This document shows, one piece after another, positions 32,285 through 36,962 of a stretch of DNA of 64,000 bases; within the stretch, counting starts at the first letter, position 1, and every line of letters starts with the position of its first letter. Below the pieces are notes generated by a model, which saw nothing but the letters and a program-made list of their open reading frames with translations, was not told the origin of the DNA and did no database searches. The stretch is from contig JAVSMO010000001.1 in the NCBI GenBank assembly GCA_032027165.1, positions 1,800,458-1,864,457 on the forward strand. Direction: 5' to 3'. Both the position numbers and the translations under genes were made by a program. The DNA comes from Denitratisoma sp. (lineage in GTDB: Bacteria > Pseudomonadota > Gammaproteobacteria > Burkholderiales > Rhodocyclaceae).

Positions 32285-33571
32285 CTACCGGGTCACCGTG
32301 CCGTCGGTCGGCATCGGTTGCAGCACCGGGTTGCCCCTTCTGACTGCCGTATCCAGGGCTTCCTTGGCCGGCTTGAGGTTGGCCCAGACGGCTTCCAGTT
32401 CCTCGTGCAGGATGGCACGCACGCGGCTCATGCCGAACACGGCCTTGGGCTTGGCCGCGGAGGCGAATCGCCGGTCCGACAGGCGCTCCACCGCCTTGCG
32501 CAGCAACTCGGGGGGGGCACCCTCCGCCGCCAGCCCGCCCACCCCGGCGGGCGTCATCGGCAGGTAGCCGGTGCTGCGTACCCACTGCCGCTGCACGTCC
32601 GGCCGCATCATGAAGGAAATGAAGCTCGCCACGACCGCATATTCCGGCTTCTTCTTGCCCGCCAGCACCCACAGTGCGGCGCCGTCCGGCAACAGGCGGC
32701 CGGGCGCCGCGCCGCGCACGTCGTCGTAGTGCGGCAGGGCGGCGACGCCGAAATCGAAGGGCTTGCGGCGCAGCAGCTGCAGGTACAGGGAGGAGTCGCT
32801 CGTCAGCATGCTGCATTCGCCCGACATGAATTTCTCGTCCGCCTCGCGGCCCGGGCCGAAGGTGCGGAAATAGAAGCTCTTGTGCCAGCTGGCCAGCAGT
32901 GCCACGTGCTTGACCTGCACCAGGTTGTTGAGGACCAGCCCGGTCTTGCCGCCCTGCTCGGGACTGACGATCGGTTCGCCGTGCTGGGTGGCGGCGTTCT
33001 CCAGGAGCACCCAGGCCGGGTTGGACGAGGTGAACGGGCAGCGGCGGTCCACGTCGAAGACCTTGCCGGCCGCCGTCTGCAGCTCCCACCAGGTGACGGG
33101 CGGTTTCGCCGGGTCGAGTTTCGCCTTGCGGAAGGTGTCCTTGTTGTAGTACAGGACCGGCACCGAGAGCGCCAGCGGCAGCGCCTGGATGCGGCCCTTG
33201 TTGTCGTCGACGACGTCGGCGAGGACGGGGAAAAGCGCGGCGGCGTCGAACTTCTCCTTCGCGCCGGCCATCACCTTGTAGAGCGGCAGCATGCGCGGGT
33301 GGCTGTCGAAGAACTTCTGGTACTCCTCGTCCTCGAGCAGGGCCAGGTGCGGCAGCTGATGGGGATCGGCGGCCATGCCCACATGCTGCAGGACCACCTT
33401 GCCGGACCTGCTTTCGGCGTTGAAGCGTCCGACGAACTCGACCAGCGCGGCGGCAGCCTCGCCGGTCATGGCATGGCGGAAGACGATCTCGGGCGGCGGC
33501 GGCGGCGCCTTGGCCGCCTGCGCCAGCGCGGACAGGCCGAAAATGATGGCGGCAAGCAGTTTGGGGAGCAT
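32285..33571 (-). CDS. ugpB: sn-glycerol-3-phosphate ABC transporter substrate-binding protein
   Basis: A periplasmic binding protein of 428 residues with signal peptide (MLPKLLAAIIFGLSALAQAA). Similarity to UgpB is strong and local: VPVLYYNKDTFRKAKLDPAKPPVTW, FMSGECSMLTSDSSLYL, GAALWVLAGKKKPEYAVVASFI, STGYLPMTPA and ILHEELEAVWANLKPAKEALDTAVRRGN. In most genomes it sits with ugpA, ugpE and ugpC; here only ugpQ follows and no permease or ATPase is in the window. The permease genes may be elsewhere, or the protein may have another use. Confidence 0.88.
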   Translation of the reverse strand: MLPKLLAAIIFGLSALAQAAKAPPPPPEIVFRHAMTGEAAAALVEFVGRFNAESRSGKVVLQHVGMAADPHQLPHLALLEDEEYQKFFDSHPRMLPLYKVMAGAKEKFDAAALFPVLADVVDDNKGRIQALPLALSVPVLYYNKDTFRKAKLDPAKPPVTWWELQTAAGKVFDVDRRCPFTSSNPAWVLLENAATQHGEPIVSPEQGGKTGLVLNNLVQVKHVALLASWHKSFYFRTFGPGREADEKFMSGECSMLTSDSSLYLQLLRRKPFDFGVAALPHYDDVRGAAPGRLLPDGAALWVLAGKKKPEYAVVASFISFMMRPDVQRQWVRSTGYLPMTPAGVGGLAAEGAPPELLRKAVERLSDRRFASAAKPKAVFGMSRVRAILHEELEAVWANLKPAKEALDTAVRRGNPVLQPMPTDGTVTR

Positions 33572-35014: not shown

Positions 35015-35758
35015 ATGAACAAGTACCAGAGAGTCGTGCTCATCGTCGCGGCGGTGAACGTCGCGCTGATGCTGCTTTTCCCGCCCTTCCTCGACAATCC
35101 GCTCCGGCGCGGCGCGCCGCCCAGCTTCGAGGGCTTCTACCCCCTGTGGTCCGCCCTCGGCCTGAAGCGCATCCACAGCGAGCTGCTGACGCTGCAGATG
35201 CTGTTCGTTGCCATCAACGGCCTGCTCGCCTGGCTGCTCCTCGACCGGCAGACGGCCAAGGGCGAAGTGCCCGAGTTCCGCTACACGCGCGCCATCAGCT
35301 TCTTCCTGGTCGGCAATCTCGCCCTGCTGTTCGCCTTCCCGCCCTTCGAATCCTATGCCTCGCTGGCGAAATTCGAGGCGCCGAGCTTCGGCGGCTTCTA
35401 TTTCGTGCTGGGCGACAAGAGCCACCGCCACTTCTTCATCCCGCTGCTCTACATGGAAGTCATCCTGGTCGTCGCAAACGTGCTGGTCGTCTGGCTGCTG
35501 TTCAACAGCCTGCGGCGCGCCGAACTGTTCGCCAAGGAGAAGATTCTCGAACTGGCGCAGAACCTGCCGGCCACGGAACTGGCCGAAGTCTCGAAGACCC
35601 TCGGCTACAAGGCTGTGCACCCCGCCGGCGTGCCGACGCCCCACGAGCCGCACCTGGGCGCCGGTCCGGACCGGCGCAAGTACCAGGATCCGCGCTACCG
35701 CGGTCCGGAACGCCGCAAAGGCGGCGATCGCCGCTTCAAGATGCGCGCCGCCCAGTAG
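35015..35758 (+). CDS. membrane protein with tandem FPPF repeats (paralogue A)
   Basis: 247 residues, not a family I recognise. Four hydrophobic segments are arranged as two similar units. Each unit has a first helix ending in (L/A)LLFxFPPF, a short loop with P-SF-(E/G)-GFY, and a second helix ending in WLL(L/F). Unit 1 is about residues 5-75, unit 2 about 92-170. The cytoplasmic tail ends in a basic GPERRKGGDRR motif that occurs at the termini of various proteobacterial proteins. The next gene encodes a protein of the same design, so the pair arose by duplication. Function unknown. Confidence 0.75.
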   Translation: MNKYQRVVLIVAAVNVALMLLFPPFLDNPLRRGAPPSFEGFYPLWSALGLKRIHSELLTLQMLFVAINGLLAWLLLDRQTAKGEVPEFRYTRAISFFLVGNLALLFAFPPFESYASLAKFEAPSFGGFYFVLGDKSHRHFFIPLLYMEVILVVANVLVVWLLFNSLRRAELFAKEKILELAQNLPATELAEVSKTLGYKAVHPAGVPTPHEPHLGAGPDRRKYQDPRYRGPERRKGGDRRFKMRAAQ

Positions 35759-35866
35759 GGCCTGTTGGCCGCCGGATTGATTTGGGCGGCAAACTCCTCT
35801 ACGCTTGCGGCACAACAACAATTACAGGGAGGATGTCCTGCGGCGATCACGCCGGCGGAGTTCTGC

Positions 35867-36439
35867 ATGAACCGACAGCAAGCCATCGCCCTGTGGGTCG
35901 CAGCCGCCAACCTGGTGCTGGTGCTGGCCTTCCCGCCCTACGACTACCTTTCCCTGGCGCAGGGCTACGTGCCCACCTTCGGCGGCTTCCATTTCGTCGG
36001 CACGGCCCCGCCCAACAGCCTGCTCAACCACAACTTCCTCATCCTCGAGGAGATCGTCATCCTGATCGATGCCGGCATCGCCTGGCTGCTGCTGCGGGAG
36101 AGGGCGCCGAATGCGGGCGGGCGCTTCAGCCGCGGGCAGCGCGCCGTGCTGTGGCTGGTCGCCATCAACCTGGTGCTGATCCTGCTGTTCCCGCCCTTCG
36201 AGCACTACCAGGCCATCAGCAAGACGGCCCTGCCGTCCTTCGACGGCTTCTACTTCGTCTTCGGCGACACGGCCCAGAAGCAGATCGTCTCGGCCCTGCT
36301 CTACATCGAGGCCGCCCTGGTCCTGATCAACGGCGGCCTGCTCTGGCTGCTCTTCGCCGACGGCCGCGGCAACAAGCTTTCCACGGAAGAAAAACGGGCG
36401 CTCGCCAAGGCCCTGCGGGAACACCAGCAGGGCGACTAG
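35867..36439 (+). CDS. membrane protein with tandem FPPF repeats (paralogue B)
   Basis: 190 residues and related to the preceding gene. Unit 1 has LVLVLAFPPYDYLSLAQG, PTFGGFHFVG and IAWLLL; unit 2 has LVLILLFPPFEHYQAI, PSFDGFYFVFGD and LLWLLF. Thus there are again four helices in two repeats, but without the basic DRR tail. The start ATG 35867 follows GGCGGAG; an in-frame extension to 35765 is untidy and rejected. Co-transcription with paralogue A is likely (108 bp gap). Function unknown. Confidence 0.72.
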   Translation: MNRQQAIALWVAAANLVLVLAFPPYDYLSLAQGYVPTFGGFHFVGTAPPNSLLNHNFLILEEIVILIDAGIAWLLLRERAPNAGGRFSRGQRAVLWLVAINLVLILLFPPFEHYQAISKTALPSFDGFYFVFGDTAQKQIVSALLYIEAALVLINGGLLWLLFADGRGNKLSTEEKRALAKALREHQQGD

Positions 36440-36458: not shown

Positions 36459-36962
36459 TCAGTGCTTGAGCGGCTGCCAGCCCGGATGGTCGAAGTGGCT
36501 GGCGTATTTCTCCAGCGCGCTCCCCACCTTCAAGGCGCCGGTCTGGCGCTTCACTTTCTTCGCCTTGCCCTCCATCGCCTCGACGCCCTCGAGGATGTCG
36601 GCGATGACCAGATGCAGCTGTGCGTCGGCCTTCGGATCCAGCTTGCAGCCGGCGATGATGCCTTCCACCTCGCCGTGCACTTTCTTTGCCAGTTCGCCGT
36701 ATTTGGCGGCGGAAAGCTTGTTCTCGTGGACCTCGTGGTGCACGGCGTCGATGCTGTTGCGGATGTTCTCCATGCCCTTGCGCAGCGGCGCGTCGGTTGC
36801 CCACTTCTTGCCGTTGTTCAGCTCCAGCTTCGCCGGCGCCGCGCCGTGTTCGTGGTCATGGCGATGGCTTGCCTTCTCGGCGGCGGACAAGGGCGCGGAT
36901 GCAAGGGACAGGGACAGGAGCGCCGTTCCCAGCAGGCTCCACATGCGGTTGCTTACAGACAT
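36459..36962 (-). CDS. secreted helical protein with His-rich N-terminus
   Basis: 167 residues with signal peptide (to PLSAAEKA), a mature N-terminus with a histidine cluster (HRHDHEHG), then a predicted four-helix body: LRKGMENIRNSIDAVHHEVHENKLSAAKYGELAKKVHGEVEGIIAGCKL and LHLVIADILEGVEAMEGKAKK, ending FDHPGWQPLKH. There is no CXXCH, so it is not a cytochrome c, though the helical length recalls cytochrome c'/b562 bundles; one cysteine remains. Metal binding through the His cluster is possible. A PmrA-like box lies 51 bp upstream, tying it to the two-component operon behind it. Confidence 0.65.
   Translation of the reverse strand: MSVSNRMWSLLGTALLSLSLASAPLSAAEKASHRHDHEHGAAPAKLELNNGKKWATDAPLRKGMENIRNSIDAVHHEVHENKLSAAKYGELAKKVHGEVEGIIAGCKLDPKADAQLHLVIADILEGVEAMEGKAKKVKRQTGALKVGSALEKYASHFDHPGWQPLKH

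Follow-up and report, generated by a model that had tools for sequence, protein, structure and literature searches.

Two paralogous membrane proteins with fused FPP units and their single-unit relatives on viral and bacterial DNA

Introduction

Two adjacent genes in a Denitratisoma sp. genome, here called A and B, encode small membrane proteins in which the same sequence unit recurs four times. They lie within a 64,000-nucleotide stretch of contig JAVSMO010000001.1 that was analysed as a whole (hereafter, the window), and they raise the question of how such a repeat arose, where else it occurs, and what the proteins may do. From their sequences, A and B are almost certainly old paralogues in a nameless betaproteobacterial family of inner-membrane proteins with four helices, each derived from two fused FPP units. 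The analysis defines this family, establishes which of its two duplications came first, and ties it to equally nameless proteins that have a single unit and are encoded on viral and bacterial DNA. The single, fused, and paired forms offer a ready test of how a small membrane protein is changed when two helix hairpins are fused.

Genes A and B

Gene A (35015-35758, + strand) has an ATG start and encodes a four-helix membrane protein of 247 aa with two FPP units and an Arg-rich C-terminal tail. Gene B (35867-36439, + strand) also has an ATG start and encodes a four-helix membrane protein of 190 aa with two FPP units and no tail. The genes share a strand, with 108 bases between the end of A and the start of B, and each product has four hydrophobic peaks. 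Unit 1 of A (35024..35248, +) consists of a helix, FPPF, a loop, PSFEGFY, a second helix, and WLLL, while its unit 2 (35282..35509, +) carries FPPF, PSFGGFYF, and WLLF, and its tail (35654..35731, +) has the motif GPDRR...GPERRxxxDRR. The corresponding elements are FPPY, PTFGGFHF, and WLLL in unit 1 of B (35876..36100, +), and FPPF, PSFDGFYF, and WLLF in its unit 2 (36134..36361, +). A longer TTG start for B at 35765, given in the list of open reading frames, is probably not the one used, because B homologues begin at ATG.

When the window genome was searched with B, the sole matches were A and B, and PERRxxxDRR, searched as a DNA pattern across the whole of that genome, was truly encoded nowhere besides the A tail. 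A scan of the region found no promoter. Terminator-like stem-loops numbered four in the region, against 1.3 expected; in both second units, the codons of PSF(D/G)GF (35379-35393 and 36232-36247, +) make small DNA stem-loops of this kind, probably as a result of codon choice.

The repeated unit and the order of its duplications

The unit can be summarised as a helix, FPP[FY], a short loop, F-x-GF[YH], a second helix, and WLL, with two copies in each protein. The first-pass annotation had described A and B as paralogous membrane proteins, each with an internal duplication, and this is borne out by both register and profile comparison. In an alignment of B with its relatives, the halves match at N15/N101, FPP 22-24/108-110, F38/F125, G40/G127, F41/F128, L58/L145, N68/N155, and W73/W160 (window B has D68), and the repeat offset is 86 or 87 residues at every conserved position. 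Comparison of half against half with hhalign gave probabilities of 99.5% for A1/A2 and 99.8% for B1/B2. The B1/B2 score of 144.8 compares with a maximum of 13.7 when B1 was aligned with 20 column-shuffled versions of B2, and reversed controls reached 29.7 for B and 17.9 for A.

The scores between halves also bear on the order of events. The first halves of the two proteins (A1/B1, 162) and their second halves (A2/B2, 187) are closer to each other than are the halves within either protein (A1/A2, 110; B1/B2, 145), so the duplication within the protein is older than that of the gene. The proposal that a two-helix unit was duplicated twice is thus supported, and its order can now be given: the unit was duplicated within a gene first, and that gene was duplicated later.

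Among 85 family members, 81 have the FPP motif twice (one of the 85 is cut at its N-terminus). Over 84 alignment rows, an Asn in each helix is conserved (N15, 94%; N68, 99%; N101, 100%; N155, 98%), and E148 is present in 99% of rows. The conservation alignment and the tree described below exclude the incomplete rows L094, L104, and L106; L085, an A-type protein that ends at a contig edge, was sorted with B in the conservation alignment and half-profile comparison and with A in the tree. The earlier view that FPPF and GFYFV are strongly kept holds in part. FPP itself is kept, but the window units read FPPF, FPPF, FPPY, and FPPF, and GFYFV is present in both second units but is replaced in the first units by GFYPL (A) and GFHFV (B).

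Distribution, phylogeny, and selection

One scan of 84,980 species genomes returned 75 loci, nearly all labelled as beta- or unspecified proteobacteria and mostly Rhodocyclales, with a single locus labelled Gammaproteobacteria. FPP genes are carried by 20 of 60 relative genomes, and 19 of these 20 are among the 36 genomes of the same family. Among 369 genomes sampled from the class and 398 from the phylum, the window genome alone gave a convincing match; outside it, the unit profile found just weak places in 398 genomes (E 0.002 or worse), some of them fragmentary or with stops. The four-helix form was found almost exclusively in betaproteobacterial genomes. One close relative (L075) is in the genome of Ca. 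Desulfobacillus denitrificans, the organism treated in PMC8402940; Azospira oryzae DSM 21223, which is in culture, has an A-type gene (L100), and Sulfurisoma sediminicola BSN1 a B-type gene (L058).

In the tree, the 25 rows with the Arg-rich tail (GPDRR...PERR...DRR) and the 59 without it fall on opposite sides of one branch, the support for which (95/75) is under the star level of the tool, which also flags long branches. The family is split into two old lines, of which A has the Arg-rich cytosolic tail and B lacks it, and the tail motif is kept throughout the A line, distant members included. Genes in the loci were called by a simple script; A followed by B in tandem was found at 11 of 76 loci, most loci carry just one of the two, and B is often the only copy. 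Values of dN/dS were 0.23-0.46 for A and 0.33-0.54 for B (nine comparisons each), and selection on both is by this measure purifying, though not strong.

Single-unit relatives

A new finding here is that the FPP unit, as judged by profile similarity, also stands alone, in predicted two-helix proteins of about 80-120 aa. On IMG/VR contigs, the unit profile identified single-unit proteins at L171 (82 aa), L152 (103 aa), L178 (approximately 114 aa), and L283 and L294 (84 aa), together with a more weakly matching type at L304. Against viral ORFs, the E values were 9e-6 for L171 and 9e-7 for L283; of the viral pattern scans, 49/49, 90/90, and 80/83 loci were read. In the opposite direction, a profile of three viral single-unit proteins searched against 249 genomes gave E <0.001 for the two window proteins alone (2.6e-6 and 3.8e-5), and with a profile of five such proteins, searched over 274 genomes, the window proteins reached 1e-7. 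The similarity between unit and single-unit protein is therefore significant in both search directions. Aligned with hhalign, the two sets gave a probability of 96% and a score of 48.5, against a maximum of 13.4 in 30 shuffles.

The five-protein profile also matched bacterial genomes, all of those sampled for single-unit proteins being Pseudomonadota. The matches were a 96-aa protein with FPPW at L400 (E 8.7e-12), a short FPPF reading frame at L402 (E 2e-7), and, weakly, L404 (YPPW; 0.009) and a candidate place in G191 (0.006). The frame at L402 (1498-1653) stops after 51 aa at the start of a transposase-like ORF (1614-2585, -), and is possibly a gene interrupted by an insertion element.

FPP[WFY] ends helix 1 in all four window units and in the five single-unit proteins, which are also like the window units in having G[FY]-x-[FL] and a [QE] that opens helix 2. 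All four window units have G[FY] in the outer loop, and in all four helix 2 opens with [QE]; exceptions occur among distant members, such as unit 1 of L097, with AF and L in their place. Unlike A and B, the single-unit proteins have one unit, FPP that is mostly followed by W or F, helices that lack the Asn, and no tail, and some have longer loops. Other searches added little to this set: tblastn of one unit or of the single-unit proteins against phages and plasmids gave nothing convincing, an FPPW...GY pattern matched 7 of 249 genomes with a convincing ORF in none, and exact peptide patterns of the single viral proteins each retrieved only their own source among viral contigs.

The V-ATPase c subunit and K2P channels are likewise four-helix proteins from fused two-helix units, and resemble A and B in that a fused two-unit form exists beside surviving single-unit relatives. 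The comparison is one of analogy, and kinship in sequence or fold is not claimed.

Comparison with named families

The first-pass annotation could not match the pair to a named family, and none that fits was found in Pfam or NCBIfam; PHROGs, PDB sequences, and PDB folds also gave no convincing match. TctB (PF07331) matched 4 of 70 members weakly (best E 3.1e-4), and no Pfam match to it was found for A, B, or any of 10 diverse members. TctB is the small four-helix membrane subunit of tripartite transporters and is like A and B in size and helix number, whereas the solute-binding protein (SBP) that neighbours the window genes is of the SBP_bac_8/SBP_bac_1 type. Of 70 members, 24 weakly matched the phage family PHROG 11096 and 22 weakly matched PHROG 27313 (best E 7.6e-5 and 5.8e-5, respectively). 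In 200 genomes, the PHROG 11096 model found no real relatives; one chance match to the PHROG models was inspected and discarded. SpoIIGA/Peptidase_U4 was rejected: B scores 15.8 against a curated cut-off of 209.55, and the one Pfam score given among the 10 diverse members is 13.5 against 28.4. Searches of the published literature by FPP motif spellings found nothing on these membrane proteins.

Predicted fold and topology

An AlphaFold model of B (70 rows; pLDDT 75, pTM 0.57) has a helix, strands, and a helix twice over, most clearly in the first half, with a pLDDT near 50 in the second cap. The model of A (pLDDT 68) has low-scoring loops and no regular strands, so that the predicted cap fold rests mainly on one repeat. 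With moderate confidence, the fold is predicted to be two repeats of helix, periplasmic strands, and helix. In B, the middle inner loop is basic (5 K/R, 1 acidic) and the first outer loop has no K/R; in A, the outer loops have 4 and 3 K/R against 4 in the middle inner loop, and its topology is therefore less clear than that of B. The best viral fold match of both window models was a 92-aa viral protein, BFVD A0A516LWQ3, which was matched by B with a probability of 1.00 (TM 0.78 on the target, rmsd 1.4 over 83 columns, E 3.1e-3) and by A with a probability of 0.90 (E 0.14). It is, unlike A and B, a single unit, and the likeness is one of predicted fold. A functional site at the membrane surface had been proposed from the conserved motifs; their surface placement fits both conservation and predicted topology, and the site remains a candidate as regards function.

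Possible roles

The role that we tentatively prefer for A and B is that of an accessory, dispensable membrane scaffold or modulator made of repeated units, rather than an enzyme. An accessory role is suggested by the patchy presence of the genes (19 of 36 family genomes), and a scaffold or modulator by this patchiness together with the lack of any recognisable catalytic set, the conserved polar residues of the helices, and the aromatic outer caps. The N and C termini of both proteins are predicted to be inside. In each unit, helix 1 would run via FPP[FY] to a short periplasmic cap, rich in strands and bearing F-x-GF[YH]F, from which helix 2 would return. Single-unit proteins would need to assemble from several copies, while the fused forms would pre-pair two units and A and B together would supply four; a complex of A with B cannot be the rule, since most loci have only one of them. 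The Asn conserved in every helix may aid helix packing, the aromatic caps may line the outer surface of the membrane, and the Arg-rich tail of A may dock cytosolic partners or acidic lipid. Counting against this model, the helix Asn is not retained in the viral single-unit proteins, and window B itself has Asp at 68.

Alternatively, four helices with two-fold pseudo-symmetry could form the pore of a small channel or transporter, its path lined by the conserved Asn and Glu. Polar residues are indeed conserved within every helix, and also where helix 4 ends on the outer side, and pore-forming two-helix subunits have given rise to two-unit fusions (K2P and the V-ATPase c subunit). VIA-align rows are also partly channels (pannexin, LRRC8), but at Z 5-6, a level that the tool itself notes as typical of common helix arrangements. 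A Foldseek search of the PDB gave nothing at E<=0.001, and neither Pfam and NCBIfam nor a search of PDB sequences turned up a transporter family. We consider a channel unlikely.

The neighbourhood survey that had been proposed at first pass identified an SBP gene as the commonest neighbour of FPP genes, and so A and B could be membrane partners of this SBP and of the neighbouring glycerophosphodiesterase, anchoring the SBP or relaying its signal inward. In the window, the gene (32285..33571, -) encodes an ABC-type solute-binding protein (SBP_bac_8); glycerophosphodiesterase and glycerol-kinase-like genes are nearby, and no adjoining permease gene was noticed among the neighbours scanned. In Rhodocyclales, FPP genes are mostly divergent to an SBP_bac_8 gene accompanied by one for a glycerophosphodiesterase, in many cases close to an alaS-like gene (identified by eye); the window and its closest relatives have a CaiB-like gene between the SBP and FPP genes. 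An SBP gene adjoins FPP genes at 47 of 76 loci, in the tail and no-tail lines alike, and at 44 of the 66 loci whose upstream sequence exceeds 1.5 kb; in 44 of the 47 it is divergent, typically across a gap of about 130-150 bases. However, 34 of the 36 family genomes have the SBP, and 15 of these are among the 17 that gave no FPP match, whereas G046 has FPP without SBP and other betaproteobacterial lines with FPP genes have no SBP at the locus. SBP and FPP are therefore not an obligate pair, and their link looks mainly positional, resembling an inherited chromosomal position. A partnership with the SBP is accordingly improbable.

A sensor, in which the aromatic periplasmic caps bind lipid or a small molecule and the Arg-rich tail of A relays this in the cytosol, is just as doubtful. 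The outer motifs rank among the most conserved parts, the tail motif is retained even in distant A members, and in one lineage a gene for a nucleotide cyclase lies ahead of FPP; yet B is tail-less and often the sole copy, and no regulator neighbour is common to all lineages.

Least probable of all, and in our view very unlikely, is that the FPP unit had its origin in phages, as a two-helix membrane protein encoded in the lysogeny region (a superinfection-exclusion or immunity-type factor) that betaproteobacteria took over, fused, and duplicated, with A and B still guarding the inner membrane against phage DNA: this reading is kept because of two viral gene contexts only, at L171 (3590-3835; an adjoining repressor-like gene and a nearby integrase-like gene) and L283 (10236-10487; two repressor-like genes nearby), while the few genes scanned around L152, L178, and L304 gave no repressor or integrase hint, and a literature search on superinfection exclusion found no match. 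The vicinity of repressor and integrase genes is the usual site of lysogeny and moron genes.

Two other small proteins recur at these loci. Between B and a two-component system, the window encodes a presumably exported 167-aa protein with a His-rich stretch (HRHDHEHG; 36459-36962, -), which has no Pfam or NCBIfam match and is common to a cluster of 11 loci. A 134-aa protein with no Pfam match (L047:6060-6461, -), also presumably exported, recurs downstream of the SBP in a 17-locus cluster.
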